From Tetraselmis striata (Eukaryota; Chlorophyta; Chlorodendrophyceae; Chlorodendrales; Chlorodendraceae), in assembly GCA_006384855.1 (NCBI GenBank), contig VCJN01001640.1:1-64000 (forward strand): 64,000 nt of DNA, written 5' to 3'. Both the position numbers and the translations under genes were made by a program. The notes under the pieces are model-generated. The model made no database searches, had not been told where the DNA came from, and was given only the letters and a program-made list of their open reading frames with translations. This document shows positions 38,081-58,195 of the stretch, piece by piece (within the stretch, counting starts at the first letter, position 1; each line of letters opens with the position of its first letter).

Positions 38081-38313
38081 TCTATAATATATATATTTAT
38101 TTATGGCTGTGTATATGCTGTGTATATGCTATGTATTTGCTTGGAAAACAAAAACAAAAACGAAAACAAAAAACGAAAAACGAAAATGATTTGAGTTTTG
38201 CAAATCGCGACGATTTGCTATATAGCAGCTTGGGAACGATTATAGCAGCTTGGGAACGATTATAGCAGCTTGGGAACGATTACATTTGGATGCGATTACA
38301 TTGGAGGCAGTTG

Positions 38314-38661
38314 CTATGTTTCGCTGTTAACATATTGCTGTTCCTCACGCATGCGATTCGCACCCACATGATCTTCGTCTACATTCACCGTCAGAACGTT
38401 GATCGTCCTCTTCACCTTGTATTGATCGATGTCGACAATGAGCGACTGATCAAGCATCCAACGAGTTGGGTGCGCCATGGACAACCGCACGCCTTCGCCT
38501 TCGATGAAATCAATGTTGTTCCCGATCATGTACTCCTTCAACACCTTATCAAGACGATTCATCACACTGCACATCTTCTTCCATTCGTTGAACCGCTCGA
38601 CGTATTGTGCAAGCTCGCGCTGAATCTTCGGGGGGAGCTCATCGGCCTTCGCGCACGCCAT
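38314..38661 (-). CDS. TIR-encoded PLV protein, 115 aa (left copy)
   Basis: ATG 38661 to TAG. Charged helical protein (QRELAQYVERFNEWKKM, then MNRLDKVLKEYMIG) with a basic-acidic C-terminus. Identical to the right-hand copy except for six residues, all in the second half. No known domain. It lies in the inverted repeat and is transcribed toward the element's end. Function unknown; a DNA-binding or terminus-associated role would fit the position but is speculation. Confidence 0.75.
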   Translation of the reverse strand: MACAKADELPPKIQRELAQYVERFNEWKKMCSVMNRLDKVLKEYMIGNNIDFIEGEGVRLSMAHPTRWMLDQSLIVDIDQYKVKRTINVLTVNVDEDHVGANRMREEQQYVNSET

Positions 38662-38796
38662 GGCGATTGGTCAAAAGCGGCTGGGGTATTGTAGCGAGTA
38701 CTTTGGTGTGGGCGTGGTGGAAATGATGGTGCTTCCTTGTGCCCGCGCCGCTTATAGGGACACGCCATGGTCGGCATGTGGCCACCGCAAGGCGCC

Positions 38797-39042
38797 GTGT
38801 TTCTGTGTTTCTGTGTTTCTGTTTCTAGGCCCTCAGAAAAGGCTCTTCAGTGATATTTTTGTACCTTGTACCGACCATGAACAAAAACCCGCGTTCCATA
38901 GGTGATACTTTTGGAGCCAAAATACACAGAAACATCCAGCTGCTTTCTTACAGTTTTCGGACATTCTGAGGTGGTTTCTACGTGATTCCGTGTTTCTAAA
39001 TCGGATTTCAAAACAAAAACAGTTCAGAAACATAGAAACACT
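38797..39042 (-). repeat. GTTTCTG-bounded 240-bp module, left-TIR copy
   Basis: Inverted copy of the modules at 42905-43141 and 57211-57452. Its two ends are imperfect inverted repeats (GTGTTTCTGTGTTTCTGTTT and the reverse complement type AAACAGTTCAGAAACA). Confidence 0.8.
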
Positions 39043-39229
39043 CGCGAGACGCTTAGTCGCTCGTCGGCCTCAATCGCGGCGTTCTCTCGCTCTCTCGCCC
39101 GCTCTCGCGCAGTGCCGCCGGCCTCGCTCGGTCCTTGAGCCGAAGAGCGCGTGACTCGGTGCAGTACTTAGGCAGAACACACCGAGACTCTCAAACGCAC
39201 CGAGACTCTCAAACGCACCGCGCGAGACG

Positions 39230-39559
39230 CTAGGAAATCATCCTTTCGAATCCGCCCTCAAACGGCGAATAGCCCTCCTCATAGCGCTTGATCTCGACGA
39301 GTGCCGGCGCCGGCTTTGGGATGCGCCCCTTTTTCAGGAGCGCCTTGAATTCTTTGAATCGGATCCCGCGCTCGTAGAGGACAAGGATATCGATTACATC
39401 ATCTCCGAAGCCCGGGTACTTTGCGCGAAAGTACTCGCGATTGAATTTCGGCTGATATCTATAGTCGAAACTAGCCACATCCAGGAACGCTTGGCTGAGA
39501 TAGCAGCGCTCCGCGGGAGTCATCGCCCGCCCGAGGGACGTTTCGCATGTGTTACTCAT
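39230..39559 (-). CDS. PLV hypothetical protein, 109 aa
   Basis: ATG 39559, stop just inside the left TIR boundary. Contains FNREYFRAKYPGFGDDVIDI and FKEFKALLKKGRIPKPAP; mixed-charge soluble protein without a known domain. Its start overlaps the stop of the upstream zinc-ribbon gene by 8 bases, so the two are probably co-transcribed. Confidence 0.65.
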   Translation of the reverse strand: MSNTCETSLGRAMTPAERCYLSQAFLDVASFDYRYQPKFNREYFRAKYPGFGDDVIDILVLYERGIRFKEFKALLKKGRIPKPAPALVEIKRYEEGYSPFEGGFERMIS

Positions 39560-39983
39560 GTTTTACGATAATGAAGGGAAAATCGTTTGCATTTGATGGG
39601 CGAACGTCGTTGCTGCTCGCGCGGTGCGTCTTTCGCTCCTTGTTGCACGGAAAACACTCGAAGTAGTCCGCGCGGATCTTCGTGCCGCACTTGCACGAGT
39701 TCGTCTTCTCGGCTTCGCGCTTACGATAACACGGGAAGCACATCGCGTAGTCGCCTTTGACCTCGCGCTTGCGACAGACTTGGCACCTCGCGGGCATTTG
39801 ATCTACCTCGCGAAGAATATCCTCGCGACACCGACGACAGTAGCTGGACGAGTAGATTGTCACTCGAACGCAGCGCGGACACAACCGAGCGCGGCGCAAC
39901 GAAGACGCGGAGGCCGCGGAGGTCGCGGTGTCGTCGGTGCCGGAGTCGCTGAAGGAGACGGTGACTGAGACGGACGGTGGCAT
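39552..39983 (-). CDS. PLV Cys-rich zinc-ribbon protein, 143 aa
   Basis: From ATG 39983; a longer form would need a GTG start. Serine-rich N-terminus, then four C-x2-C pairs: LCPRC, YCRRC, CQVC...CFPCY and CKCGTK...CFPCNK, i.e. two or more zinc ribbons. Likely nucleic-acid binding, such as a viral transcription factor; the family was not identified. Followed with 8-base overlap by the 109-aa gene, and divergent from the rightward gene at 40,075 across 91 bases. Confidence 0.7.
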   Translation of the reverse strand: MPPSVSVTVSFSDSGTDDTATSAASASSLRRARLCPRCVRVTIYSSSYCRRCREDILREVDQMPARCQVCRKREVKGDYAMCFPCYRKREAEKTNSCKCGTKIRADYFECFPCNKERKTHRASSNDVRPSNANDFPFIIVKHE

Positions 39984-40074
39984 TCTGCAGGCTCTCGCCG
40001 CGCTCCGCGGTCGCTCCACTTAAGTGTGTCATGCAAGTGCAGATAAAAAACGGACGCTAGATAAAAGAAACGTC

Positions 40075-40337
40075 ATGGGGCGCGGAAGGTACCGTGTTTT
40101 GAGCGACGAGGAGCGCTTGGAGCGGAAGAAGATCGCGCAGAAGCGTTGGCGCGACAACAACCGGGAGCGTACCAATGCGTACCGCGCGGAGTACAACGCC
40201 GCGAACCGCGATCGCGTGCGCGAATACCTAGAGAGTACTACCGCGCCAACGCGCAGCACATCCGCGAGTACCAACGCGAGCTTTACCGCCGCGCCACTAC
40301 CCGGCTTAAGGCGGAGGCCGCGGATAGTCCTTTGTAA
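40075..40337 (+). pseudogene. PLV basic Tyr/Arg repeat protein, frameshifted
   Basis: ATG 40075. It is built of short repeats of the type R-x-N-x-x-Y-R-A/E-x-Y (WRDNNRERTNAYRAEYNAAN, then EYYRANAQHIREYQRELYRR). The two halves are in different frames, meeting near 40,228-40,235. The shift has the sign of one lost base. Such Y-R-x-N repeats occur in DNA-binding proteins of large DNA viruses. It immediately precedes the polymerase-helicase gene. Confidence 0.6.
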
Positions 40338-40370: not shown

Positions 40371-42888
40371 ATGCCTCGCTCAAAACTCTCCCAAAAGTTC
40401 TACTCCGAGCCCATCGCCCCCGAGGCGCTTTCGCATGTCCTCCGCGATGTGCTGCCCCAAATCGAGCTTGCCCATCGGGACGGGAATCTCGCCGTTCGCC
40501 TGAAGCGCATGCAAAATATGATCCATAACGGCGCCCTCAAGGTGTCGTACGGAAAGAAGATCCGCGACAAGGCCGGTAACGAGTACGGCCGCGAGTACTC
40601 CAAGTTGCCGTTGTCGTTTCAGAATTTGAACCGCAAGATTCGCAACGCGCTCGTGAACCACCACATTGAGATGTCCGGTAAGCGGTGCGTGGACATCGAC
40701 GTGGCCAATTGTCACCCGAAGGTGTTTGTGCAACTATTGGAGAACGCGGCGTACGCTCCGACCACGACCTCATCCTCAAGTACGTGAACGAGCGAAAGCG
40801 CATCCTCGAGGAAGTACAGACCGTCTATTCGTGCGACCGCGACACCGCCAAATCGCTGCTCCTCGCTCTCATCAATTTTGGCACCGTCAAGGGGTGGGCG
40901 TGGATAAACAAGGTGGCGCTTCCGCCGGGGGCCGAGACGACCGACATCCACCGCTTCCTCGAGAACTACTACAAGCAGTTTGTGGCGTGTGTTTCGGAGC
41001 TGATGACCATCATGCCGGAACTCGTGCTTGCTGCAAGGGAGTCCCTTGGTATGCCGTGCGAATACGACGACGATGTGGGCGACGAGCACCTCTCCGACAA
41101 GCTGAAGCTCCAAAAGCGCTTTGTTCATATCATGCTCTCAGATGCCGAGAACAACGTGCTGCAAGCCGCCTTGGAGTATATCGTCAGGACTCACAAGTCC
41201 GCTCGCGTCATCTCAAAGATGTTCGACGGGTGCATCGTTGAGTGCGAGGACGATATTGCTTGCGAGCAGATCAAGCGCCACGTCATGCTCCGCACGGGCT
41301 TTGTCCTCGACTTTGAGGTCAAGCCTTTCGTATCGCCCTTCCGCATTCCGACCGACCTGGATCCGATGGATGTGGACGACAAAACCAACAATACTCCCAA
41401 AGGTAAAACGCTTGACGACATGGTGCCGGCGAAGCACATTGTCGACATGATCGGAGACAAGGTGATCCGCGCCGGTGATCAGTACTACGGCTACAACGGC
41501 AACAGCAACATGTGGTCGCCGGGGTCCGTGAATGAGATCGTGGCTCAACAGCTCGTGCACGGGCGTAATCTCATCTTCACCGGGGTCTGCCCAATCAGCC
41601 GCAAGGATACTGTGAGGAACCTCGGGTACTCCAGCCATCTCAGGGCGACCATTCCATGCATCCCTCCTTACATTCTGCCGAACAACGAGTTCCTTGTCAC
41701 CAAGTACAAGAGCACATATCGCAAGATCAAGTTCCGCAACGGTGTGTACAACATGGCTACCAACACGTTCCGCCCCTCGTTTGTGCCCAACGAGTACTTC
41801 ATGGTCGACGTCCCGAGGGCCTTCCCCGTTCGGGATCTAGTTGCGACTGACCAGGCGGTGGACCTGCTGAAGGGCATCTACACGCCGAAGCGAGAGGAGC
41901 GCAAGCCGTTCGACCCGACGTTTGGTCCCGAGATGCCGCTGTGGCAGTTTGTGATGACCGCCATCGCCCTCGCTATTGCGGGCGAGGTGGAATGGAAATA
42001 CGTCCTTGCCATGATTGGGGAGCGCAACTCGGGGAAAGGCGTGGTCCAAGCGTGCATCACCGCAGCCTTGGTCTGGTATCGTCCGGCTTCAGCGCCAACA
42101 ACCTTCTCGGCAACGACACGACGGTGGATGAAGCAAAGAGATTCATGTTTCTGAGGGACGCCGCCGTTAGCGGATGCCGAATCGTGTGGCCGAACGAGAT
42201 TCGCACCACCACGCAGAGGGGCGAAACCTTCATCGACGGAAACCTCGTCAAGGGCATCGCGAGCGGCGGGGACACGCTGCTTGTGCGCGGCAACCACCAA
42301 GATCCGTTCTCAGTCCGACCGGAGTTCACGATGTTCCTCAACGTCAACGATCTGCCGGTCACCAAGCCCGCGATCGGGAACTCGATGCTGCGTATCATTC
42401 ACCCCAACGTCTACACCAAAAACCCCACAAAGCCCAACCACAAGCTCGCGGACCCGGCCATTAAGCACATGGTTCAGGAGCCGAGCTTTGCCGACGGGAT
42501 GATGTGGGCCGTTCTCGACATGTACCGAGAGTTCAAGGCTTCGGGCAGGGTCTTTGAACCCATCCCGCAGGTCCTGAGCGCCACCGAGGACGCCAACAAC
42601 GACGAGGAGGAGGACGTGTTTGTAGTCCTCGAGCAGGCCATCGAGTTTGCCGAGCCGTTTCAGGACGAGCGCTTGTATCGGGACGGCGGCTACTTTTTGC
42701 GCGCCGCTGAGCTCAAGAACGTCGTGGCTGATCTGAAGAAGGAGGGCAAGCTCAAGGGCGTCTCGCTGAGCGGCATCACCACGAGGCTTCAAAACAACGG
42801 CTACGAGAAAAAGCAGATGAGGCACGACGGCGTGAACAACAAATTTTTCTTAGGCATGAAGGCCCGCGAGATGGAGACCGACGAGTGA
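40371..42888 (+). pseudogene. TVpol-like DNA polymerase fused to SF3 helicase, two frameshifts
   Basis: Replication protein of about 839 codons across three frames: 40371 to about 40,755; about 40,755 to about 42,090; about 42,090 to 42888. Both shifts have the sign of one missing base. N-terminal third: CVDIDVANCHPKVFVQLLE, like the metal-binding motif A region of transposon-virus polymerases (TVpol), and later ISKMFDGCIVECEDD, a motif C-like block. C-terminal third: Walker A GERNSGKGVVQ, then SGCRIVWPNEI (Walker B region) and TMFLNVNDLPV (sensor/motif C), diagnostic for SF3 helicases of the D5/PLV type. The TVpol-SF3 fusion is known from virophages and PLVs. The SF3 part is certain, the TVpol call probable. 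Confidence 0.8.
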
Positions 42889-42904
42889 CTGTAGTATCTC
42901 CTTT

Positions 42905-43141
42905 CTATGTTTCTGGACTGTTTCTGTTTTGAAATCCGATTTAGAAACACGGAATCACGTAGGAACCACCTCAGAATGTCCGAAAACTGTAAGAAAGCAG
43001 CTGGATGTTTCTGTGTTTCTGTTTTGGCTCCAAAAGTATCACCTATGGAACGCTTGTTTTTGTTCCTGGTCGGTACAAGGTACAAAAATATCACTGAAGA
43101 GCCTTTTCAGAGGGCCTAGAAACAGAAACACAGAAACACGG
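42905..43141 (+). repeat. GTTTCTG-bounded 240-bp module, internal copy
   Basis: Same sequence and orientation as the right-TIR module at 57211-57452, with a few substitutions. Sits between the helicase stop and the next gene, with no long ORF of its own. Ends CTATGTTTCTGGACTGTTTC and AACAGAAACACAGAAACACG are inverted relative to each other. Confidence 0.8.
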
Positions 43142-43182
43142 GAACACGTAACACGGCTTTCCCATCGGTGGGAGGAGCAGCC

Positions 43183-43674
43183 ATGACCACCTACGCCGGA
43201 GTCCGATTCCCGTCCGACGGCTTTGAAGACGAGACGGAGACATGCGGCTATCGCGTCAAGCTTGTGAACAACATCGGCGTCGAGACGGACATATGCGGAG
43301 AGGAAGGCGGCGTACCCAAATGCAAGCGCAAGAGCGTGCACCGCGTGTGGTACATGGCTGAGCACACCCACTTGCCGGTGTTCACGTGTGGCAAGCGCCG
43401 AGGCATTACATTTGACGAGGTGATAGAGAAGGACCGGAAGTTCACCGCGCGAGTCCTCAATGCCGAATACATCTACATCGAGTGCATCGCAAGCTTCCGC
43501 GAGTACATCGAGAAGAAGATGTATGGCAAAGTATTGTTCAAACGCGTGGATCTCAGCTTGGAGGAGCCTTCTGAGGACTACAACAAGATCAATACTGCAA
43601 AAAATGTATTACTGGGGGAAGCAGCGCATGCCAAAGGGGTTGGCGGGGAAGAAGCCCCCAAAACACGAAGGTAA
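43183..43674 (+). CDS. PLV hypothetical protein, 163 aa
   Basis: ATG 43183. Contains a Cys-rich first part (ETCGYRVKLVN, ETDICGEEGGVPKCKR, HLPVFTCGKRRG) and a helical part (ASFREYIEKKMYGKVLFKRV). Possibly zinc binding; no family recognised. Its last 71 bases overlap the start of the next gene in another frame. Confidence 0.6.
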   Translation: MTTYAGVRFPSDGFEDETETCGYRVKLVNNIGVETDICGEEGGVPKCKRKSVHRVWYMAEHTHLPVFTCGKRRGITFDEVIEKDRKFTARVLNAEYIYIECIASFREYIEKKMYGKVLFKRVDLSLEEPSEDYNKINTAKNVLLGEAAHAKGVGGEEAPKTRR

Positions 43675-44035
43675 GACGTTCGAGTGGGTCTTCGACAACG
43701 ACAAACACTACGCCATGTGGCTTATCAATACGGTACACGAAGTTAAAGCCCTCAAAGTTCTAACGGGGCAAGCCCACGGGTTCATGTGCAAGTACTGGAA
43801 CGCCTTCGAATATTTCGTGTACCGCGACAAAGCCAAGATCCCGCATCGTTTCACGCGAGAGGGTATGCCCAAACATCCCGAAGACTACGACGAGTCACAT
43901 GAAGGCGTTCCCGAAAACAAACCAAAACGCCGCCCTCACCGAGACCACAAGTACCGCGAGCTCCTCGAGGCCATGAAGCGCAGCGGGTGCAAGACACCGA
44001 GAGAGTATCACGATTGGCTTGATCAGCGCATGTAA
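43604..44035 (+). CDS. PLV protein with exonuclease-X-tail-like GK...GKTFEWV motif, 143 aa
   Basis: From ATG 43604. The core KHEGKTFEWVFDNDKHYAMW resembles the small C-terminal domain found on exodeoxyribonuclease X and in many viral proteins, G-K-x-x-G-K-T/x-F...D-x-x-Y-x-x-W. A basic tail follows (KPKRRPHRDHKYRELLEAM). No nuclease catalytic residues are present, so enzymatic activity is not implied. Confidence 0.6.
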   Translation: MYYWGKQRMPKGLAGKKPPKHEGKTFEWVFDNDKHYAMWLINTVHEVKALKVLTGQAHGFMCKYWNAFEYFVYRDKAKIPHRFTREGMPKHPEDYDESHEGVPENKPKRRPHRDHKYRELLEAMKRSGCKTPREYHDWLDQRM

Positions 44036-44259: not shown

Positions 44260-44964
44260 ATGACGAGCTTTCAGATTCACCTCGACAGCAAATTCGCGGA
44301 CATGCACTTCTCCGCAAACGCTTGCGTGTTCTACCTCGCGGACCCGCTCACCCTCCCTTCGCAGGATTACGAGTGGCTTGTAGCGGTGCCGCACGCGACA
44401 ATCCCGCTTTCGCAGTGGGTTATCGATGAATCGAACAACCTGCTCGAGCTAGTATACTCCGACAAGTCACGATACATATCGCTACCTCTCGGAAATCGAA
44501 GCGTGGACGAGATCGTCGTGTACCTCAACGACAGGCTTTTGCACGGATACACCGCCGCCTACGACGAAGCGATAAACCGTATCGTATTCGGCTCCGAGCT
44601 GCTTGGCGAAAGCCTCGCGATCGGAGAAATGAGTACGTGTGGAAGGTTGTTGGGCGTGGAAGCGGGAGACGCGGCGGTGGACGGCGTGCTCATCCCGCCG
44701 CGCGGCGTCGATCTCGCGGGTACCTCGTCGATATTCATCCGAAGCAACCTTTCGACTCGAAATCGCGATCCGGTGTCGAAGGCGACAAGCGATATTCTCG
44801 CCAAAGTGCACGGTTCGCAGAATTTTAACGAGATCGAGTATAACTCGTCTTCGCTCAAGTTCCCGATAGCTTATCGAAACGTGTCGCTCATCATCATCTA
44901 TCTCACCGACGACTTTCAGCGACACATGGATTTCCACGGCGCGGACTTCTCGCTAACCCTCTAG
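44260..44964 (+). CDS. PLV structural protein candidate, 234 aa
   Basis: ATG 44260 to TAG. It starts with beta-rich sequence (FQIHLDSKFADMHF, YEWLVAVPHATIPLSQW, SNNLLELVYSD) and ends VSLIIIYLTDDFQRHMDFHG then ADFSLTL. This N-to-C pattern, with a final D-F-x-G...L-x-L, is common to virion proteins encoded by Polintons and PLVs. Exact homology (minor capsid or fibre base) is not resolved. Confidence 0.6.
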   Translation: MTSFQIHLDSKFADMHFSANACVFYLADPLTLPSQDYEWLVAVPHATIPLSQWVIDESNNLLELVYSDKSRYISLPLGNRSVDEIVVYLNDRLLHGYTAAYDEAINRIVFGSELLGESLAIGEMSTCGRLLGVEAGDAAVDGVLIPPRGVDLAGTSSIFIRSNLSTRNRDPVSKATSDILAKVHGSQNFNEIEYNSSSLKFPIAYRNVSLIIIYLTDDFQRHMDFHGADFSLTL

Positions 44965-45071
44965 TTTACGCTTCGTCGAAAAGAAACCATCTCGCACGCC
45001 GTAGATTATCGATTAACTGGTGTTATGAATAACGATGCTAGCCCGCCAAAAAGAAACGTTGAGGCCTTCCG

Positions 45072-47890
45072 ATGCGTCAGGGGATCCAAGTGGATCTAAG
45101 CGAGGTGAACGATAGTATCGCGGAGCTCGAAGCGAAACACGACATCGATACGGAGAATTTGGAGGCCGGTCTCGGGGAAACACAATCAAATGTGGAAGGC
45201 CTCTCCAACGCCGCCGCCGCCGCGGATGCGCTATCGTCGCTCGAGGACGATATCGTCGCTCTATCGAACTTCGCTCACGATTGCTGCGAAACCGCCGAAT
45301 CGAACTTCGCAACGCTTAGCGAAGAGCTAGCGGCTATCGATACCAGCTCATACATCCCTCAAAGCGAGATGTCGCGATTCATTGTGGACCTCGTCGCGCC
45401 TTTCGCGATAGGAGCACACGCGGACAACGCCGGCCGGATTGACGTTTTCGGGACACTTCGCAGCCCCCTTGGTGCCTTTCTCTTCGATCTCGGGCGAGCC
45501 CTTTCGAAGCCCTTGGCGCGAAAGTGTACGCCGAGGGGCTAACTCTTTTCGGACCCCTCAAATATAAAAATTTTACACAACTTTCAAGGCGCGGAAGGCG
45601 ATTTCAACCTCGACGATTGTTATCGAATACGCGCTATCCCCTCGCCGCCCCGCCGAACCACCCCACAATCGTCACGCTCGCTCAGATCAACGAAGTGGAA
45701 AACGCCCGACGGTATCATCATTACACGGCCGACCCTTCTGCCACGCGATATTAATCCGGGAATTCCCGCCCCCTTGCTCGGCGTGGGAAATCTGACTTAT
45801 GCCCGTTCTGGTAGGGGCAACTTCACAACCTCTTTGCGGGCAACATCTACGGCCTCGACGAGAGGTGGGTTCGACACGTCGTGTCCCTCCTCGGAAGGGG
45901 ACCCGCGGGCGACCCCTCCGAGTGGATCACGGAGCTGTCAAAGTGACGTTAACATTCCGGCTTCAATCTCGACGTCGACTTCACGGGCCCACAAGGGCCG
46001 GCTGACCCCAAGGCGAACAAGGCCCGGCGGGCGAAGCCGGAGCCGACTCGACCGTGCCCGGCCCCGAAGGCCCCACCGGACCGCCCAGACCCGCCGGACC
46101 GGCAGGAGCTGACTCGACCGTGCCCGGGCCCACCGGACCGCCCGGACCCGCCGGACCCGCCCGGAGCTGACTCTACCGTGCCCGGCCCCACCGGACCGCC
46201 CGGACTGCCCGGACTCGCCGGACCGCCCGGAGCTGACTCGACCGTGCCCGGCCCCGAAGGCCCCACCGGACCGCCCGGACCCGCCGGACCGGCAGGAGCT
46301 GACTCGACCGTGCCCGGGCCCGCCGGACCGCCCGGATCGCCCGGCCCCGAAGGTCCGCCCGGAGCTGACTCGGCCGTGCCCGGCCCCGAAGGTCCGCCTG
46401 GGCCTAGCGGTCCAAAAGGAGATAAAGGGGACCCCGGAGACCCGGCGCCAGTGGGCGAATACGCCCCGATAGCACACACGCACCCGTACTTACCGCTGAG
46501 CGGAGGTGACATAGGATCAGGGGGTCAAATCAGAGTTGTACAGAGCACCGTCGAAACGGATAACACGTTTCCCGGAGATTTCGAATTGGTGAGTCTGAGA
46601 GTTGCCGACAGCAGATATGCGAGGAAAACCCAAACGTCGAGCGCCGATTGGGCCTCGCTGTCCGGCCGCCCGCTTTGGACCGACAAGTTCATATACACGC
46701 AAAATGTCGGTCCCCAGATGTACCCAACAGCCTCCGAGAATTACGACATCGTCCTTCTCGACAGCATAACGCCTACCACCAACGACGTGTATAACTTGGG
46801 CCAAGATGGACTGCGATGGAAATTTGTGTACGCCATGAGCGGTCGGTTTGCGACCGATATCCATGTTGGCGAAATCACCAACCATGCGAGATTCACGTGC
46901 AGCACGGCCTCGAACCTCATGACGTTGAGCCGCCCCTTGCTCCTTCCTCGGTCGCCCGAGCTGAGTAACGAGGCCGCGACCAAGGGCTATGTCGACACGG
47001 TTGTAACCAACGTAGTACCCCCCACCGCCAATTGGACAACGCTCAGCGGGAGACCGCCGTGGACCGACGGGTTTGCCACGCTCGACGCATACACGACCGT
47101 TTTATCGAAGCATCTCATTCCACCCGCCGACAACGATGGATACGTCGGGGTGTCATACCTGAGATTTGCCCAAGTTAACGCCGTAGAAGGTGCGTTTGAC
47201 ACGGTCGTCGCCGATACAATCACCGGGCTGTCTCCTCCCGTACAAGGGCAGGATGCGGCTTCCAAATCCTATGTTGACCAAACGGTTGCGAGCGTCTCCG
47301 CGGTATCGTGGAACAATGTTACCAATAAACCCGTTTGGGTCGGTAAGTTTTCACAATCGACAAGCGGCAACCCCGCGCTCGAGACAACGTCTCTAAAAAT
47401 GGGCGGGAACGTGATCTACGACTTGGCCGAGCCGATAAACTCGCACCACGCCGCCACGAAGAACTATGTGGACTCTTTCAAAGGCAGCGTAACCTCGTTT
47501 AGCGAATGGAAGAGACAAGCAATAGCCGATCGGTTTTGCAAAGTCTTGAATTCATCTTCGGGGATTTCTCACACATTCAAGTGTGAACTTTTACACTTAC
47601 GGCCGTATACCGACGCGACCCCGAGCGGTCACATGGAAATACGCATAAAATCTAAGGCCACTGGAGGAATTGTGTATGTCAGGTATTGGGCTCTTACTTA
47701 TCTCGGTGTCGTATCGGGGCCATTCCATGGTTTTGAATCAACGGAACAAACGGTCGACTTGCAGAGCGGTTTACTCGCGACTGTCACAGTTTACGCGACT
47801 GCGACGGTTCAAGGACACACCGAAGACGTCGTGATAGGGACAACCACGTTCACCACGGCTGCTAATACCTCTAGCGAGTACTTTCTCTAG
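45072..47890 (+). pseudogene. PLV collagen-like fibre with phage-type C-terminal modules, frame-broken
   Basis: One long fibre gene in pieces. N-terminal coiled coil from ATG 45072 (DSIAELEAKHDIDTENLEAG), then VYAEGLTLFGPLKY and GLDERWVRHVVSLLGRG in other frames. A collagen-type Gly-x-y region follows (46,020-46,440; [16 protein letters not shown] repeats). The intact C-terminal part (to 47890, TAG) has three modules, each with W-x-x-L/V-x-G/N-x-P-x-W-x-x-K/G-F and A-A-T/S-K-x-Y-V-D. At least six frame changes plus TGA/TAA codons lie between about 45,480 and 46,170. The A-T-K-x-Y-V-D word is typical of phage tail fibres. Likely trimeric host-attachment fibre, inferred. Confidence 0.75.
46020..46440 (+). 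repeat. collagen-coding GC-rich tandem repeat
   Basis: Imperfect repeats encoding Gly-Ala-Asp-Ser-Thr-Val-Pro-Gly-Pro-x-Gly-Pro, unit about 66-75 bp, six or so copies. The frame moves inside the array near 46,150, consistent with slippage or consensus error in repeats. Confidence 0.8.
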
Positions 47891-50286: not shown

Positions 50287-51210
50287 CTATGCCGTATCGG
50301 AGATGGTTAGCGAGATGCTTACCTGCGACTCCGCGTCCGTGCCGGCCACGAGACTAAACGAGTCGACGGTCGGGGCGGTGGAGTCCGCGTTGGTGGCTAT
50401 GGGCCCAAAGCCGTCCACGCTCGTCTCGTTCCCGGCCTGGTCCTTCGCCGTGATCCACGTGTAGTAGATGGTGTCGGGCGTCAACCCCGTGTAGGTGTGC
50501 GAAGTCGTGCCGCCGGGGAACGCATCGCCGATGGTCTTGATGAGCGCCGGCCCGGGATTGGTGTCCTGCGTGTCATTTAGCAAAACGTAAATTGTCTGAA
50601 CGGCGTCGTTGTCCGTCACGTTGAAGGTGACGTTGAGAACCGTGGTTGGAGGCGTGCCGCGCGACACGCTTCGGGCCGTGATGACCGGAGGCGTGTTGTC
50701 CTGCGTGGTGTACACGCCGAGCGGGGTGATGGACGAGTTTGCGTTGTCATCGATCAACTCCACCTAAAAGTAGCGAGCGGCGTTTGGCGCCCCGATATCG
50801 TACTCCCATGTGAGACTGGAGCCGCTGATGCCGCTGGTGATGTCCGCGGTGGAGGTGCCCGGGATGGTGTTGGTGGAGTTTACGTACAGCAGCGCCGAGG
50901 ATATCGTCATTTCGGGTTTGATTAATATGGAGATTAAAGCTTGTAGCTCCGCGTTGGTGCCCGCCCCCACGCCCGCGAAGTCTATCCACGAGTCCTCCAA
51001 TAGCCTCCGCCCCAACGATGAAGCCCCCGCGTCGCGATGGATAGCGCTAACGTTTTCGAGGAACACCTCGATCGGGCCGCCGCGGCAGATTGGGCTACGC
51101 CCTCCCCCCATGTGAGGGAAGTGGGTGCTCATCAAGGCGCCGTCAAAGGCCGCTTGCACGGCGCTCTTGTCCGATGAGCCGATAGAGCTGACGAAAGCGC
51201 GATGGGACAT
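50287..51210 (-). CDS. PLV surface protein with fibronectin-III-like region, one in-frame TAG
   Basis: ATG 51210 lies directly on the TAA of the upstream gene. The frame is open for 307 codons except a TAG at codon 149 (about 50,764-50,766). The first part is a head-like region (SSIGSSDKSAVQAAFDGALM). After the TAG comes a fibronectin-III-like part (TPDTIYYTWITAKDQAGNET) and an immunoglobulin-like repeat (TAPTVDSFSLV). Sequence character continues smoothly across the TAG, so it is a point mutation, a read-through site, or two genes. The C-terminal motif is shared with the protein at 56,233. Confidence 0.65.
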
Positions 51211-52209
51211 TTACTTGGTTCGGTAGAAAACTAACGACATCACATAGCCCGGCTGAAACTCGAGCGGATCAAGCAGAGCGAGGCTGACGGCGTCTCGCAA
51301 TTGCAGATGAAGCTCCGTGAGCGAGTCGATGCTAACGCGAAGCTCGTGCCCCGCGACGTCCCGGCTGCCCGGCTTTATGAAGTATCGCTGCCCGTACATG
51401 GACTCTTCGCCCGTTCTGTACGATTTGCCGAGGTGGCCTAGAATGTGGCGATCGTCGGAGTCGACGAGTGTGGGACAAGCGAGCACGACGGAATGCGGCT
51501 GATCGGCGGGGTCCTTTGTGCATAGGAGGGGCGTGTAAAACTCTAGCGCCACCATCCACTTGCCCTCCGAGGTGTCCACCGAACGGCTCGTGTTCAGCAT
51601 CACCGGTATGCGACAATCCACGATAGACCCTCGCCCCTGCTCCGACGATACCCACGCTCGGAAGAAATCGTATGCAAACGGTTGCATGAGCAGGCACTTG
51701 CACGGCTCCCAAAACACAAGCTGGAACGCCCATGCCTCCAAGTCGTCGCTTTCGCTGACGAGGGAGAAGTCGTCGCCGGCCCCGAACTCAGAGGCGCACC
51801 GGCGCAGCCGGAAGCGCATGCTCCCGAGGCGCTTCACAAAGTCAAAGTCCACCTCGACGCCGATGTGCTTGCGACGCACGTACGGTACGTCGTGTGCGAG
51901 GCCGTACACGCCCGCGGTGGCGTAATTCTGCAGGAGGGTTAGCGCGCAGCTCGAGTTCCCGCTCCAGCTTTCATACGAAGTAGCCGCTCGCAGGTCCGGC
52001 GCCTCGAGAAGGAGGCCCGACGAGTTTGCGGGGTTAGCCACATAGCCGTCCCCCTCGCTCGTGTATCTAACGACATCGCAGAATTCCACGGCGCACATCA
52101 CCCGCCTCGAGTCGAATCGCGCGAACTCCTTCGAGGTGTCTACGACGAAGTCCCCGCGGTGGCCGGATGTGCGCTGCTCGGAGCTAACGAAGATGCGGTG
52201 GACCGTCAT
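51211..52209 (-). CDS. PLV minor capsid (penton) candidate, 332 aa
   Basis: ATG 52209 to TAA, uninterrupted. Beta-rich (RIFVSSEQRTSGHRGDFVVD, then YVMSLVFYRTK at the end) without Cys clusters or membrane helices. Position directly downstream of the major capsid gene (44-base gap), plus length, fit the single-jelly-roll minor capsid protein of PLVs. The assignment rests on context and secondary-structure character, not on a motif. Confidence 0.6.
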   Translation of the reverse strand: MTVHRIFVSSEQRTSGHRGDFVVDTSKEFARFDSRRVMCAVEFCDVVRYTSEGDGYVANPANSSGLLLEAPDLRAATSYESWSGNSSCALTLLQNYATAGVYGLAHDVPYVRRKHIGVEVDFDFVKRLGSMRFRLRRCASEFGAGDDFSLVSESDDLEAWAFQLVFWEPCKCLLMQPFAYDFFRAWVSSEQGRGSIVDCRIPVMLNTSRSVDTSEGKWMVALEFYTPLLCTKDPADQPHSVVLACPTLVDSDDRHILGHLGKSYRTGEESMYGQRYFIKPGSRDVAGHELRVSIDSLTELHLQLRDAVSLALLDPLEFQPGYVMSLVFYRTK

Positions 52210-52253: not shown

Positions 52254-53482
52254 TCAAAATGCAGAAGTTGCGACTCCCGCCTCGATGATCAATACCGCGT
52301 CGAAATGCGCCCACGTGCTGATTTGGTAAGCGGTGCTTCCGGGGGTCACGGTTCCCAGCAAGTAGCAGTTGGTGTTGAGGGTGTTCTTGCCGCTCTCGGT
52401 CAGCGTGCTCTTGTGGCTGAGCACCTCGAGGTTCTGGCCTATGGCGAACGTGCCGGATGCACTCCCACCGCTGTTATTTTTCCACGAAGTCAGATTTATG
52501 AGCGACGTGTTTTGCGTGCTCCCGAACGTGTGCATGGCTTTCATCAGCTCAGCGAAGGTCTCGACCTCTTCGCGCACGGGTGTCTGCGGAATGTTTTCGC
52601 CGGACACCGAGTAATACCAATTCTTGAGCCCACACGTGGTCCGAGTTGAAACCGACTTGGACGCGGCTAGAGTGAGATCGGCCTGCTTGCGGAATATGGT
52701 GTAAAGCGTTTTGAGGGACGAGAACCGCGCGGGGATAAGCTTGTTGATTTGCCCCTCATTGGCCTGGATAGAGTTGGTGTAGTTGGCGAAAGACTCGTAC
52801 GAGATGACGTACCGCGGGTTGGCCTGCTGAATCATGCGATCAACCTCGCTTGTCACCTCCACAAACTCGAGCTGCAGTTCGACGTTGCCGATCTCCCAAT
52901 CGGGAGCCGTGCCTACCACGGCGGCGTTGGTGGCGGCGAGAGTGAGTTCGAGGCGCAGATCACCGCCGGTCATTGCGCCGGTTGGCAGGTACTTCGACTG
53001 AAGGCCGCCAATGATGCCGGACATGATCGGGATGCAAAAATAGGCAGTTGTTCCCGCAGCAATCCCAACGCCCTCGCGGTAATGGGTGTCTTCGTCCTCA
53101 TTGGAGCCGTACATAATGGAGCCGCCTCCCAAGAGCTCTTCATCCGAGGACTGAATGTCGAACATGAGATGGTACAGCGCATTGTACTCGTGGATCTGCT
53201 CGAGGAGATTCGCGCCGTGGTAGAGCGACAGAGACTGGATAAACGACGAAGCGGTGTAATCGGGCTGCAAGGAATTGGCGGCGTGCTTGTTCTTCACGGA
53301 AAACCGCAGGTAGGACATGCGGGTGTTGAGGTAGTGCCCGCGGCGGCCGCACGGGATGTTGATGAGGATGGTCTGTTGACCCCCGAACGTGGTGCCATTG
53401 TAGGCGGGCACGGTCTGCCGGTGGGTAGTGCCGGCGATAGAGGCGGGCTTGGGCTTAAGACAAGGGAATCGCTGACTGACAT
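52254..53482 (-). CDS. PLV major capsid protein (double jelly-roll), frameshift after start
   Basis: Capsomer protein of about 409 codons. The main frame contains TVPAYNGTTFGGQQTILINI, RRGHYLNTRMSYLRF, LYHGANLLEQIHEYNAL, YFCIPIMSGIIGG and GDLRLELTLA, the typical layout of PLV/adintovirus double-jelly-roll capsids. The open frame continues upstream to codons for VSQRFPCLKPKP but has no ATG there. ATG 53482 (preceded by ATTTAAA) joins it only with a one-base shift within the first five codons, of the type expected from a lost base. Ends TGA. Confidence 0.85.
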
Positions 53483-53521
53483 TTTAAATAATGCTGAGAA
53501 CTTTATTTTAGCGAGGCGGGG

Positions 53522-53860
53522 CTAGCGCCGCTCTAATCCGCTACGATTCGAGCCGCTTTGGTACGCCGCTTTGATGCTGTGCATGCCCCCCCTGACTTGA
53601 CCGTAAGCCGCTTTCGCTTGGCCAAAGTCCACGCCCCCGCCGGAGAGGGCCTTCTTGCCGACGTCGCCGAGCACGCCAATGCCCTGCGCCGCCGCCCCGG
53701 CCGCCGCAAACCCGGCTCCGACTGTCGGGCTGAGCACCGAGATCGCGGGCGCGAGAGTCATGAGCCCGCTGCCCACCTTGTGCCCCAAGTAGGAGGCCGC
53801 GCCGGCGACTTTGCTCCCAAAGGCTTTGAAAGTGTGTCCAAGCTAGCCAATGAACGTCAT
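53522..53860 (-). CDS. PLV small Gly/Ala-rich hydrophobic protein, in-frame TAG at codon 6
   Basis: Open frame from ATG 53860 except TAG at codon 6, 112 aa to TGA. The mature part is Gly/Ala/Val-rich and moderately hydrophobic (LAPAISVLSPTVGAGFAAAG), with a basic amphipathic C-terminus (SIKAAYQSGSNRSGLERR). Similar small proteins accompany capsid genes in PLVs and may act in membrane disruption or capsid cementing (inferred). Without read-through, no ATG start remains downstream of the TAG before residue 42. Confidence 0.55.
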
Positions 53861-53901: not shown

Positions 53902-54540
53902 TTATCGTCGCTGCCTTCGCGGCCGGGGCACGATGTTTGGCGTTATCGGCGGAAGGGCCGCCCTGCTTGTCGATGCGCCGTCATTCCGCCCAGAATTGAA
54001 ATTGGCTTGAGATTCGTACGGCACCATTTCTCCATCGCCTGATGCGAAGCCTCTAACCGGGCGTTTCCCCTTTCTGATATCCTCCTTCTTGTTCCCAAGA
54101 GCGATGCTCTCTCGCAAAGCCAGCGAGGCCGCACTTGACGCAGTAGCCGTACGGGGGTTTCGCTTTGTCCCGGGCATGTTTCTGCGCCCCCGGGTCATTG
54201 CGTGAAAGGAATATCTGTCCAACTCCGGTACGTCTTGAGGACGAGGAAACACGCCGACCGGGTTGAAATGCGTTTGAGGTCCCTCGTGACCGGGTCCAAG
54301 GGCAGGCAGATCTCGAAACATTTCTACCTCGGGTACCCTGCGACCAAACACCGCTTCGGGAAAAACCTCCTCAATTGTTTCAATTCGCGACCTACGGCCC
54401 TGCCTTCCGCCGAGGGCTACGCCCGATCCGTCGAATTGACGAACCCATTCAGCAACGCTCGTGCCCCCGGCTCGCGGCCTCGCTTCGATCGCAACGACAT
54501 GCTGGTGCCCCGCCTCGACGCGCGCCGGCTCGTACAACAT
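53902..54540 (-). CDS. PLV hypothetical basic protein, 212 aa
   Basis: From ATG 54540; six codons longer if a GTG overlapping the previous stop is used. Arg-rich, with SSAASLALRESIALGNKKED and a very basic end (NIVPRPRRQRR). Compositionally like a packaged, DNA-associated virion protein. No domain recognised. Confidence 0.55.
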   Translation of the reverse strand: MLYEPARVEAGHQHVVAIEARPRAGGTSVAEWVRQFDGSGVALGGRQGRRSRIETIEEVFPEAVFGRRVPEVEMFRDLPALGPGHEGPQTHFNPVGVFPRPQDVPELDRYSFHAMTRGRRNMPGTKRNPRTATASSAASLALRESIALGNKKEDIRKGKRPVRGFASGDGEMVPYESQANFNSGRNDGASTSRAALPPITPNIVPRPRRQRR

Positions 54541-54554
54541 CGGAACGGCCTGGC

Positions 54555-55055
54555 TCACGGGGGCGGGGCAGCCGGGCGCACGGGGGCGGACGTCGACGCT
54601 TCTGACATTGTGGCGACAGCGGTGGGTGGAATCGACACCGCGGCGAGCCCCTTTACCTCCGTCATCCTATCCATTACCGGAGGTGCATCCGTTTGAGTTG
54701 AACCGGCCCTCATGCTTGGCGGCCTCGTGCCCCCGCCCCCAAAGTCGCTTTGAATGAATGACCCGTCCGGCATGTGATTCACGCGAATGGGTTGTCCCAT
54801 CGAGTAAGTGGCAAAGCTGTGATGCATCGCGCCCCCCGCGCCGCTCCCTCCCCCCGCGCCGCCGCCGCCGCCCGCACCGCCGCCTCCCCCGGGTCCGCCT
54901 CGGCCGCCCGACACGCGCACGGTGACATTATGTGTCACGCTCTGGTTCTTCCTGCCGCCGGTCTTGGATCCCTGCTTGCGTTTACCTCCCCGCGCCGCCG
55001 CCTTCTTCTTCGGCTCCGCTTTGCGATTGCTGGATTTCGTTGTCTTCCTAGGCAT
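54555..55055 (-). CDS. PLV Lys-rich N-terminus plus poly-Gly protein, 166 aa
   Basis: ATG 55055 to TGA. Starts with a strongly basic segment (KAEPKKKAAARGGKRKQG), then a Gly-rich linker of about 30 residues, then a Pro/Ala/Met-rich tail. Probably a virion core or linker protein. Start overlaps the ATPase stop by 8 bases; the stop overlaps the next gene's alternative GTG start. Confidence 0.6.
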   Translation of the reverse strand: MPRKTTKSSNRKAEPKKKAAARGGKRKQGSKTGGRKNQSVTHNVTVRVSGGRGGPGGGGGAGGGGGAGGGSGAGGAMHHSFATYSMGQPIRVNHMPDGSFIQSDFGGGGTRPPSMRAGSTQTDAPPVMDRMTEVKGLAAVSIPPTAVATMSEASTSAPVRPAAPPP

Positions 55056-55749
55056 TTAAGTTAATACGATCAAATTTCTTGTAGAATAAGCTTTTCTCGA
55101 CATCGCAGAACAGAAAGTCGTACCTTTCCCTGAACACGAAGCGCATGAGGCTGTCCGCGGTGTGAGGGTCGAGGAATATCAGCTCCTTGAATATGGCCTC
55201 GTACTCGCGCTTGTTACGGGGTTTCAGCATGGCAAAGTGCGAGATGGTTTTTCGCACGGGCAGCGGGATGGCGTTAAAGCTCTGTACGAGCATCAATATC
55301 GAAGTGCGAAGGTGGCGACGATTGTAGATTATCAGCTTCATGAGCCGCTGCACGTCCCTATCTTTGAGCGCCGCCGTCTGGTCGTCTATCACGAGGAGCG
55401 AGAACTCTTCCTCGTCCGAAGCCGTCTTCAGTTTCTCGTGTATGCCATCGAGGGTGGACCAATCCAGCTCATCGTAGCACTTGTCGTGCTTTTTGAATAT
55501 TTTGACATCGAGCGAGGCAAGCGAATGGGGCGGCATGACGAGGTGCACGTGCTTGAACGCCTGGAAGTACATCTGCGGGCTCCGCAGCATGTTGACCATC
55601 AGCGACGTCTTCCCGCTCCCCGCGCTCCCGATGAGCGTCATGAAGAACGACTTGTCGGGCAAGGGGCTCTGGATTTGAGGGTGGATCTTAACGTCGCACT
55701 TGAACTTTGGGGGCTTCATTACAATCTTCGACCGTTTGTCGATGTGCAT
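55048..55749 (-). CDS. PLV genome-packaging ATPase (FtsK/HerA, A32-like)
   Basis: From ATG 55749 (233 aa); a TTG seven codons earlier would overlap the preceding gene. Walker A GSAGSGKTSLMVNML near residue 45, Walker B FSLLVIDDQTAAL near residue 112, and a sensor-like block ILMLVQSFNAIPL. Length and layout are those of the A32-like DNA-packaging ATPases of PLVs, virophages and NCLDV. It would pump the genome into preformed capsids. Central in the leftward virion gene block. Confidence 0.88.
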   Translation of the reverse strand: MHIDKRSKIVMKPPKFKCDVKIHPQIQSPLPDKSFFMTLIGSAGSGKTSLMVNMLRSPQMYFQAFKHVHLVMPPHSLASLDVKIFKKHDKCYDELDWSTLDGIHEKLKTASDEEEFSLLVIDDQTAALKDRDVQRLMKLIIYNRRHLRTSILMLVQSFNAIPLPVRKTISHFAMLKPRNKREYEAIFKELIFLDPHTADSLMRFVFRERYDFLFCDVEKSLFYKKFDRINLNA

Positions 55750-55766
55750 GCCTGATTTTAGTTTAA

Positions 55767-56206
55767 TCAAACGATTATCACCGAGTCGTAAAAGTCTGCT
55801 CGCTCTTCATACCGCGGCGCCGGCTCGCTGGGCTCCTCCTGCCGCTTCGGCTTGGTCGCCCTAGGCGGCGCCCGCGGCTTCCGCTTGCGGGGCGGCTCGG
55901 GCTCGGGCTCCCCCGCGGGAGGGGAGGGCTTCTTCTTCCACGGCCCGCTCTTGAAAAACTCGGACTCGATAAACTCGTCTATCGCGCTTAGGCCAACCTG
56001 AGGCGGTCGAGAAGCCCTAGCTGCCACCTGCTGGTCTCCCTCGCCTGCTGAAGCTCCGCCTTTGCTTCCTGGAGCTCCGCCTCTCTTTTTCGGAGCTCTG
56101 CGCTTTGCGACAACATGCTTTGCGGTATTTCCAGACCGTCGTCAGATAGCTCGCTATCCCGATCGCTTGGAGGGTCTCGACAAGCCAACTCATCATCATA
56201 TTGCAT
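55767..56206 (-). CDS. PLV coiled-coil protein, two overlapping ORFs (probably one gene)
   Basis: Frame 1 runs from ATG 56206 to 55988: acidic start, then a coiled coil (RKREAELQEAKAELQQARE). Frame 2 (56027-55767) has no ATG and continues with VGLSAIDEFIESEFFKSGPW and a Pro/Arg/Glu-rich tail. Frame 2 lacking a Met, and starting inside the coil, suggests one gene of about 146 aa with a frame shift near 55,990-56,030. Its TGA overlaps the ATPase region by 4 bases. Function unknown. Confidence 0.5.
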
Positions 56207-56232
56207 CGATATTTGATCTCACGAAACATAAA

Positions 56233-56967
56233 ATGGCGTCCGGGATCGGCGAAGTGCGGCTCTACCACAACACGGCCAACACCATCCCCGTGGGGGTCTA
56301 TGACGATATCACCTCGCAATTCGCCGTCGGGGCGACGAGCGACGCCGCCAACCTCGTGAAGGGCGGTCTCAGCCCCGGGACGCAATATTGGTTCTGGGTG
56401 GAGGTAATCGATGTCGCTGGGAACGAGTCCGCCATCCTGCCGCTCGGGAGCATAACGACGGCGGCCGTTGATGACGTGTGGTTGTTTTACTCCACTGGAT
56501 CCACCTTCGGGACGCAATGCATTAATAGGTTCTATTACAACGGTGCGGCCGGAGAAGGGGGTACGTACTCTCTCAATTACGATCACGTGACTTTGTACGA
56601 CAATAACGAGAACAAAGGCGTGCTCCCCGAGAATGGCGACGGCTCCGCATCAGACACGGCGGTAGTCCAACAGGGTAGCAGTACCGCACTAACGATGAAC
56701 TCGACGCTAGAATCGGGGTACGCTCAGTTGGCGTGGGGAAGCACGACCGCGTCGGTGGCGGAGCCAAAGCTCGTGTTCAGCATCAGGATACCGGGCGATT
56801 ACTCCACAAAGGTTCCCATGGCCGGGTGGTCGTGGAACCAAGGCGCCATCAACAGTTCGCAACTAGGGAGTTGGATCATTTTCCGAAACGGCGCTCAGAT
56901 GAATCACACCGGTACGAACAACCCCGGGGGGAACGGGCAGGCGTTCCGCGACATTGGGCCCCTCTAG
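56233..56967 (+). CDS. PLV fibronectin-III-like surface protein, 244 aa
   Basis: ATG 56233 to TAG, uninterrupted. N-terminal part has GLSPGTQYWFWVEVIDVAGN, a FN3-like strand pair matching the leftward protein at 50,287. The C-terminal part is a lectin-like beta-sandwich candidate (VFSIRIPGDYSTKVPMAGWS, WIIFRNGAQMNH). Divergent from the coiled-coil gene across 26 bases. Likely a decoration or receptor-binding protein (inferred). Confidence 0.65.
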   Translation: MASGIGEVRLYHNTANTIPVGVYDDITSQFAVGATSDAANLVKGGLSPGTQYWFWVEVIDVAGNESAILPLGSITTAAVDDVWLFYSTGSTFGTQCINRFYYNGAAGEGGTYSLNYDHVTLYDNNENKGVLPENGDGSASDTAVVQQGSSTALTMNSTLESGYAQLAWGSTTASVAEPKLVFSIRIPGDYSTKVPMAGWSWNQGAINSSQLGSWIIFRNGAQMNHTGTNNPGGNGQAFRDIGPL

Positions 56968-57210
56968 CTCGTACCAACTCTTGCGTAAGATATCCCCCTT
57001 GCGCGGTGCGTTTGAGAGTCTCGGTGCGTTTGAGAGTCTCGGTGCGTTTGAGAACCTCGGTGCGTTTGAGAGTCTCGGTGTGTTCTGCCTAAGTACTGCA
57101 CCGAGTAACGCGCTCTTCGGCTCAAGGACCGAGCGAGGCCGGCGGCGCGGCGAGAGAGCGGGCGAGAGAACACCGCGATTGAGGCCGACGAGCGACTAAG
57201 CGTCTCGCGA

Positions 57211-57452
57211 GTGTTTCTATGTTTCTGAACTGTTTCTGTTTTGAAATCCGATTTAGAAACACGGAATCACGTAGAAACCACCTCAGAATGTCCGAAAACT
57301 GTAAGAAAGCAGCTGAATGTTTCTGTGTTTCTGTTTTGGCTCCAAAAGTATCACCTATGGAACGCGGGTTTTGTTCCTGGTCGGTACAAGGTACAAAAAT
57401 ATCACTGAAGAGCCTTTTCTGAGGGCCTAGAAACAGAAACACAGAAACACGG
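57211..57452 (+). repeat. GTTTCTG-bounded 240-bp module, right-TIR copy
   Basis: Third copy of the module. Begins GTGTTTCTATGTTTCTGAAC and ends CTAGAAACAGAAACACAGAA. Confidence 0.8.
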
Positions 57453-57585
57453 CGCCTTGCGGTGGCCACATGCCGACCATGGCGTGTCCCTATAAGCGGC
57501 GCGGGCACAAGGAAGCACCATCATTTCCACCACGCCCACACCAAAGTACTCGCTACAATACCCCAGCCGCTTTTGACCAATCGCC

Positions 57586-57933
57586 ATGGCGTGCGCGAAG
57601 GCCGATGAGCTCCCCCCGAAGATTCAGCGCGAGCTTGCACAATACGTCGAGCGGTTCAACGAATGGAAGAAGATGTGCAGTGTGATGAATCGTCTTGATA
57701 AGGTGTTGAAGGAGTACATGATCGGGAACAACATTGATTTCATCGAAGACGAAGGCGTGCGGTTGTCCATGGCGCACCCAACTCGTTGGATGCTTGATCA
57801 GTCGCTCATTGTCGACATCGATCAATACAAGGTGAAGAAGACGATCAACGTTCTGACGGTGAATGTAGACGAAGATCAAGTGGGCGCGAAGCGCATGCGT
57901 GAGGAACGGCAATCTGTTAATAGCGAAACATAG
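57586..57933 (+). CDS. TIR-encoded PLV protein, 115 aa (right copy)
   Basis: ATG 57586 to TAG. Same protein as at 38314-38661 with six substitutions (for example IEDEGVR for IEGEGVR), showing that both copies stay open despite divergence of the repeats. A CCTATAAG TATA-like word lies about 95 bases upstream in both copies. Confidence 0.75.
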   Translation: MACAKADELPPKIQRELAQYVERFNEWKKMCSVMNRLDKVLKEYMIGNNIDFIEDEGVRLSMAHPTRWMLDQSLIVDIDQYKVKKTINVLTVNVDEDQVGAKRMREERQSVNSET

Positions 57934-57974
57934 CAACCGCCTCCAATGTAATCGCATCCAAATGTAATCGTTTC

Positions 57975-58087
57975 CAAGCTGAATGATATAATCGTTCCCA
58001 AGCTGATATAATCGTTCCCAAGCTGATATAATCGTTCCCAAGCTGATATAATCGTTCCCAAGCTGATATAATCGTTCCCAAGCTGAT
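57975..58087 (+). repeat. 20-bp tandem array in right TIR
   Basis: About six copies of AATCGTTCCCAAGCTGATAT, the first slightly different. Matches three inverted units at 38,218-38,280. Confidence 0.85.
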
Positions 58088-58195
58088 ATGCAACGAATCG
58101 TCGCGATTTGCAAAACTCAAATCGTTTTCGTTTTTCGTTTTATTTTAATTTCATAGCATATACATAGCATATACCTAGCATATACACAGCCTGAA

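Follow-up and report, generated by a model that had tools for sequence, protein, structure and literature searches.

The 64,000-nucleotide window analysed here (positions 1-64000 of a contig of 83,354 bases, C1325, from the 224-Mb genome of the alga Tetraselmis striata) contains, at positions 38105-58191, an integrated 20.1-kb element bounded by terminal inverted repeats (TIRs) of about 1.1 kb. The gene content, the TIRs and the packaging ATPase support the endogenous Polinton-like virus (PLV) of an alga that a preliminary description of this DNA had proposed, and related elements are found at many sites of the genome. The most informative feature, a third copy of an inner TIR segment at 42902-43148, was missed by that description. 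What is new is brought out by comparison with sibling elements: the segment belongs to a set of type-specific sites matched to the replicase, and site type equals replicase type in all ten elements (10/10) in which both were read. Taken as a whole, the best explanation, to which we assign a probability of roughly 0.68, is that the element is a frame-damaged member of a large family of PLVs integrated in T. striata, with a type-matched cis site, replicase and site probably forming an exchangeable cassette of replicase and replication origin.

Sites in the terminal repeats and types of replicase

The long TIRs claimed previously were confirmed at the positions given below, together with the three copies of the inner segment, here termed site A.

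38105..39220, + strand: left TIR, on the replicase side; begins GGCTGTGTATATGC after an AT-rich run
38796..39038, + strand: site A copy 1, 243 bp, inside the left TIR; putative replication origin
42902..43148, - strand: site A copy 2, internal and inverted, about 14 bp after the replicase stop (repeat comparison)
57040..58191, - strand: right TIR, on the capsid side (inverted-repeat comparison)
57214..57450, - strand: site A copy 3, inside the right TIR (genome search)

The TIRs are far beyond chance. Their arms are mostly 91-98% complementary, with 75% in the outermost stretch, and, block by block, identity is 85% over the first 60 bases from the outside, 98% over bases 191-649 and 98.7% over bases 650-968, the block that includes site A. 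Among the best 40 of 97 candidates, the left TIR has at least 88 matching stretches in the T. striata genome, and most siblings in this set match the TIR on both sides of the site A segment and not within it. Site A itself is present at 11 places in the genome (11 of 11 candidates scored), with three copies each in C1325 and in contigs C299 and C1004, and one each in C2501 and C1291. An unrelated site of 330 bp, site B, occupies the same three positions in C2491 and occurs nowhere else in the genome (3 of 3 candidates), an 83-bp palindrome, site C, takes these three positions in C2549, and site D, of 115 bp, is found in C864 and C2274. The internal sites of type C fall inside the end of the replicase open reading frame (ORF). 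Site copies in the right TIR were seen in C1325, C299, C1004, C2491, C2549, C864 and C1580.

The replicase region was read in seven elements beyond those of C1325, C2491 and C2549; six elements with mixed ends, considered below, stand outside this set. In C1580 and C864 the replicase was read with no prior knowledge of the site, and C299, C1219, C1004 and C101 were chosen for having at least two known site hits. The ten elements represent five types, one with a diverged variant:

C1325: site A, replicase A
C299: site A, replicase A, 97-100% identical in its matches
C1004: diverged site A, replicase A at 62-95% in the main matches
C2491: site B, replicase B, 45-50% identical to the C1325 replicase where aligned
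C2549: site C, replicase C, of another kind
C1219 and C101: site C, replicase C, that of C101 at 71-90%
C864 and C2274: site D, replicase D, 29-36% identical to C
C1580: site E, a further TVpol-SF3-like replicase

Replicase C matches PF02399 Herpes_ori_bp (8.9e-10) and, in the same region, CyRepA1, a family of plasmid replication proteins (6.3e-8, below the cutoff for that family). The three neighbouring genes tested, g109, zn143 and an ORF within the TIR, do not track the replicase type, their mean identities being 85, 85 and 81%, respectively, within types and 89, 88 and 83% between types. C1325 and C2491 share a conserved 332-residue protein (g332), the packaging ATPase, the major capsid protein (MCP) and the tyrosine recombinase (YR) at 87-99% identity, as against the 45-50% of their replicases where these align. 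Only 1 in 50,400 random label assignments would agree in all ten elements, a figure that is not a probability because the elements are related.

Both siblings compared (C2491 and C2549) also have the YR and the methyltransferase, at 87-97% identity, and a 390-residue part of the fibre is 97% identical in C2491 and about 24% in C2549. Replicase and fibre are modules that differ from sibling to sibling. A distinct lineage, which the combination of YR, methyltransferase, collagen fibre and two FN3-like proteins had been suggested to mark, is not upheld as stated, given that the first two are common to both siblings, the fibre varies and the FN3 assignment is unsupported.

Candidate origins, proposed cassette exchange and alternative readings

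In each site there are short words, repeated or palindromic, that seldom occur in the rest of its element (4.3-4.5 kb served as that rest for sites D and E). The word CAGAAACA occurs five times in one copy of site A versus twice in the element outside its three copies, and CAGTGGCA six times in site B versus none outside the site copies; AGTGGCA-like words are common to sites B and E, and GTACC to A, B and E. The internal site of C1004 lacks the site A word, with GGGAACA repeats in its place as judged by eye, and the replicase of this element is 95% identical to type A over its first 124 residues and 62-82% identical over the rest in the main matches. The change of word, together with the drift beyond residue 124, hints that the later part of the replicase reads the site. 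In a similar vein, the Herpes_ori_bp and CyRepA1 matches of type C fit a role in origins. We infer that the site present in the TIRs and beside the replicase gene is a replication origin recognised by that replicase. For a cassette of replicase and site to enter an element, recombination would take place between the outer TIR block and genes past the internal site, both of them conserved; TIR homogenisation would later bring the far TIR into line. Dating by TIR divergence was dropped because the TIRs may be homogenised. Recombination between the internal site and the site in the far TIR would, moreover, yield mini-elements that retain replication functions only and still end in TIRs.

A mini-element lies at 6492-12718 of C2274 and spans 6.2 kb, with both TIRs, g109, zn143, g82 and replicase D. 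Among the ORFs of the window, only the TIR ORF, g109 and zn143 match it, and this comparison gave no match in C2274 for the capsid, ATPase, recombinase, fibre or methyltransferase. At its junction two site D copies are fused head to head, forming an inverted repeat with 80-nt arms that are 96% complementary, and the element has two TIRs and no separate internal site copy. It may have arisen where it now lies and is not necessarily mobile.

Both ends of 21 elements were typed by hand from coordinates, with site E taken from the best 40 of 52 candidates, so that second sites were possibly missed. The two ends are alike in 15 of them (C1325, C299, C1004, C2491, C2549, C864, C1580, C696, C454, C1860, C1946, C2679, C2696, C1728 and C2156). 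Several observations, however, weigh against a strict coupling of replicase and origin. The ends differ in six of the 21 (C1533, C951, C1638, C229, C2716 and C2765), and matched ends are hence not an absolute rule. Sites C and D stand side by side in the TIR of at least eight elements (C1735, C2156, C225, C217, C2765, C609, C2795 and C229), D is accompanied by a partial C in C1620, and D and E lie near each other in C2901. The genome search with site C found no right-TIR site for C1219 and C101 and no internal copy in C1533 or C951. Finally, the ten elements are not independent, C1325/C299, C2549/C1219 and C864/C2274 being close pairs. Three of the eight elements with C and D (C2156, C225 and C1735) yielded an internal copy, in each case of type D only; we read C and D side by side as probable former and present origins. 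The window element itself has an outer left end resembling some siblings and an outer right end resembling others, as judged by eye, which points to a mixed history of its ends.

A wider formulation, which we regard as not quite an even bet, is that replication specificity is a plug-in property of these viruses. Five or more types of replicase, falling into two unrelated kinds, would each have their own origin in both TIRs and beside the gene, the paired C and D sites would include fossil origins of former replicases, elements with mixed ends would be intermediates of exchange, and the internal origin would let the virus shed its capsid half and give rise to mini-elements.

Among other explanations, the one that survives best, although we consider it unlikely, takes the sites for recombination or cleavage sites, that is, palindromes or repeats at which elements break and exchange ends, and their association with the replicase for mere linkage. 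The joining of the C2274 mini-element at site D copies and the existence of mixed-end elements speak for it; linkage alone, however, leaves the internal match in all ten elements unexplained, as g109 and zn143, which lie between the TIR site and the replicase, do not track type. Nor does it explain the matching ends of 15 of 21 elements, and the origin-binding-protein match in type C fits origins. Somewhat less probable still is that the sites are transcription terminators, or promoter or packaging signals, located beside the replicase and in the TIRs. The internal copy does lie at the 3' end of the replicase gene, and the TIR copies near the ends, where packaging signals could be, but a signal serving the capsid machinery or the host could stay the same when the replicase changes, and the internal type C sites are inside the end of the replicase ORF. 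The weakest candidate, an ordinary decaying endogenous PLV in which site and replicase agree through common descent of whole elements without functional coupling, would accord with published PLVs and modular replication-gene replacement (PMC12220804), with the frame damage of the window copy and with the close kinship of several of the ten elements, but it does not explain the match, because C1325 and C2491 differ in replicase and site and have capsid, ATPase and YR proteins that are 87-99% identical.

Gene content, integration and genomic setting

The genes of the element, and the flank at its right junction, are as follows.

38314..38661, - strand: 115-aa TIR ORF, left copy; weak DUF7376 match (E 1.8e-4, below cutoff)
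39230..39559, - strand: g109, 109-aa conserved protein (ORF and sibling comparison)
39552..39983, - strand: zn143, 143 aa; weak double-zinc-ribbon match (E 0.001, below cutoff)
40084..40322, + strand: g82 remnant, small basic protein in two frames (sibling comparison)
40371..42888, + strand: type A replicase (TVpol-SF3-type), spread over several frames; ORFs 40371-40787, 41003-42154 and 41992-42888
43183..44035, + strand: gene in two overlapping frames (ORF list)
44260..44964, + strand: g234, 234-aa conserved protein (ORF and sibling comparison)
45066..47890, + strand: single collagen-repeat fibre gene, spread across two or more frames (sibling fibre comparison)
47905..49194, - strand: tyrosine recombinase (integrase), 429 aa, open (conserved residues)
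49286..50047, + strand: C5 cytosine DNA methyltransferase, 253 aa (PF00145, phrog_757)
50764..51210, - strand: 148-aa conserved protein (ORF and sibling comparison)
51211..52209, - strand: g332, 332 aa, 99% conserved in two siblings (sibling comparison)
52254..53483, - strand: MCP; body open, first codons in another frame (family match)
53522..53842, - strand: 106-residue open frame, 99-100% conserved in two siblings (sibling comparison)
53902..54666, - strand: 254-residue open frame, partly conserved in C2491 (sibling comparison)
54555..55055, - strand: 166-aa Gly-rich basic protein (ORF and sibling comparison)
55048..55749, - strand: packaging ATPase (A32-like), 233 aa (Pox_A32 match)
56233..56967, + strand: 244-aa protein, FN3-like by eye (no family match)
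57586..57933, + strand: 115-aa TIR ORF, right copy (ORF list)
58192..58222, + strand: AT-rich (TA)n flank, right junction (junction comparison)

The functions proposed in the preliminary description are confirmed in part. The packaging ATPase is borne out by its match to PF04665 Pox_A32 (E 9.8e-16) and the methyltransferase by phrog_757 (1.2e-12), its PF00145 match (1.5e-4) falling just under the cutoff. The SF3 part of the replicase matches phrog_1156 (1.4e-11), with SF3/primase matches also in the C2491 sibling, and TVpol is the name that we presume for the N-terminal part. No Pfam match at E<=1 was obtained for the tyrosine recombinase except for an unrelated hit of 0.06; its naming as an integrase rests on conserved R...K...R...H...Y residues, which we take to be the motif of tyrosine recombinases and which are kept also in a metagenomic relative (41% identity over 60% of the length). 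Proteins of T. striata (Tetstr1/TSEL) match it at 92-96% over the full length in five cases. The position of g332 suggests a minor capsid or penton protein. For the TIR ORF, the family search gave nothing beyond the weak DUF7376 match, and the 163-aa and 191-aa ORFs of 43183..44035 have no match in C2491 or C2549. The several fibre genes reported before resolve into a single displaced gene, whose C2491 counterpart matches collagen PF01391 (3.5e-14), and the claim of two FN3-like proteins finds no support, 56233-56964 having no Pfam match at E<=1.

The capsid assignment stands at the level of the family, 11 of 40 members of which match PF16903 Capsid_N (best E 9.5e-4), and the window protein itself is without such a match. 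Against PDB sequences, the single protein gave two chance-level hits only (E 0.58 and 0.76) and the profile none. T. striata proteins match the window capsid at 97%, and at least 123 stretches of the genome match it, with 115 of 121 candidates scored; in one group most identities are 68-100%, in another most are 36-42%, and some stretches fall lower or between. A third, very distant capsid-like group, with open frames of 685 codons, was observed in contigs C1703, C2184 and C316. The capsid relatives are Tetraselmis, MMETSP and metagenomic proteins, most of them unnamed and none named virophage. Two of them (P0047 and P0061, at 42 and 36% identity) come from MMETSP transcriptomes, indicating that related capsid genes are transcribed in some culture. 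The metagenomic capsid P0012 (64%) and recombinase P0090 (41%) each give 36,459 bases as the length of the longest contig, and are perhaps from one relative with the same gene pair. As a single protein the capsid has no match in IMG/VR, and neither capsid nor ATPase has one in the phage collection; the capsid profile found five IMG/VR loci at 26-36% identity, and the three contigs of these that were checked contain no inverted repeats of 30 nt or longer.

As for the element being near-complete, this holds for its layout and not for its coding content. The replicase, split over frames in the window, is one open frame of 852 codons from stop to stop in the C299 sibling; the C2491 fibre has 707 open codons followed by a stop, and this 707-aa ORF matches 45066-47155 in frames 3 and 2 and, more weakly, in frame 1; and in the capsid frame the match to a 409-aa T. 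striata protein starts only at residue 8. Decay or faulty assembly may account for these frame breaks; Bellas et al. (PMC10120064) traced many stop codons of such elements to assembly artefacts.

Integration was most likely mediated by the element's own tyrosine recombinase at short TA runs. A run of (TA)3 or longer lies within 10 bp of GGCTGTG or a variant at 34 of 35 ends, versus 176 of 43,000 host positions in the window (0.4%). One insertion, seen in two contigs, sits in a dispersed repeat, and at the insertion point the four undisturbed copies examined read ATATATA in three cases and ATACATA in one. The same bases flank the TA run in inverted order in four of the five elements with both ends in view (C864, C2274, C2549 and C2491), so that a circle joined at its ends would read TGAAA(TA)nTTTCA or similar; in the window element the two ends differ beside the TA run. 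These features suggest recombination within the TA core, as by a tyrosine recombinase, and short TATATA-like runs as the simple target of recombinases of this family. An allele-specific empty site was not obtained for C2549, the left flank having no second match in the assembly.

On present evidence, drawn from the assembly, a chimeric contig is rejected: many contigs repeat the layout and the structure of the ends, and close relatives whose ends are built in almost the same way are scattered over numerous positions in the genome. Directly outside the left end, at 37861-38082, is an AT-rich inverted repeat with 83-nt arms (98% complementary) and a 56-nt gap, perhaps an independent hairpin or small transposon. 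The right flank consists of dispersed repeats, in which transposase-like ORFs are embedded at 59200-63390 (Pfam zinc knuckle, E 0.008, and FAR1-like, E 0.004, both under cutoff). Elsewhere in the window, a host gene with a Peptidase_M50B domain (8e-41) is found at 18779-19381 on the - strand, and class I tRNA synthetase matches at 1526-2564 on the same strand. Arrays of 18-bp units, differing in length by element, lie between the TIR inner block and g109 in related loci (L092:706-1227, L090:4179-4886 and L075:978-1391), and in the window an 18-bp unit is repeated just 2.5 times on the left and 4.5 times on the right.

Relation to known elements and implications

The element combines three of the features by which PLVs are recognised: an A32/FtsK-type packaging ATPase, a size within 14-40 kb with TIRs, and a TVpol-SF3 or other non-PolB replicase together with a tyrosine recombinase, as indicated by the SF3/primase matches and the YR residues. 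As for a fourth, the double jelly-roll MCP, the capsid protein is a candidate through the Capsid_N matches of 11 of 40 family members. The protein-primed PolB and rve integrase of Polintons/Mavericks are absent among the 20 translated ORFs (Pfam, E<=1), and the cysteine protease of virophages (Maveriviricetes) was not found among the same ORFs with Pfam. A putative replicase-origin cassette is indicated by the covariation of cis site and replicase in 10/10 elements. In lambdoid phages, the O protein gene, encoding the initiator, and its own iteron origin travel together. The internal type C site, placed inside the end of its replicase ORF, is reminiscent of this; unlike the phage origin, the site here recurs in each TIR of a virus of eukaryotes, and the likeness drawn is one of arrangement.

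Integrated PLVs in Tetraselmis are already on record, Bellas et al. (PMC10120064) citing Chase et al. 2022 (veac068), as is the replacement of PLV replication genes (PMC12220804), and the window element as such therefore falls in a known kind. TsV-N1 and its integrated relatives belong to the same host genus and comprise free and integrated PLVs; TsV-N1 is, however, 31 kb long, and the word integrase does not appear in the main text of its paper (PMC4517135), in contrast to the 20.1 kb and the YR of the window element. The cluster C1 PLVs of Rhodomonas lacustris (PMC12220804) likewise combine a TVpol-SF3 replicase with a tyrosine recombinase, and the cryptophyte PLVs of the same paper show collagen repeats in fibre proteins and replication-gene replacement, as here, but the passages considered describe no replicase-matched TIR site, such as is present in the Tetraselmis elements. 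The EMALEs of Cafeteria (PMC8547959) also have modular replication genes and truncated forms of 5-15 kb that keep their TIRs, one truncated type being without recognisable morphogenesis genes, like C2274; they differ in having an rve integrase and virophage capsid genes. Their TIRs must have regenerated, no repeat being named as the agent in the passages considered, and C2274 poses the same question. By title and beginning of abstract, which is not proof of absence, no description of replicase-matched sites in PLV TIRs was found in the literature.

Replication-gene replacement in PLVs and virophages is known from gene trees, and the published passages considered leave unexplained how the copying enzyme can change in a virus that is copied with the participation of its ends. 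If the explanation favoured here is true, a cassette that carries an origin, with the same origin in the TIRs, would provide a mechanism for such a change of replicase and would offer one explanation of how truncated elements regain their TIRs, and the origins of PLVs would become testable.

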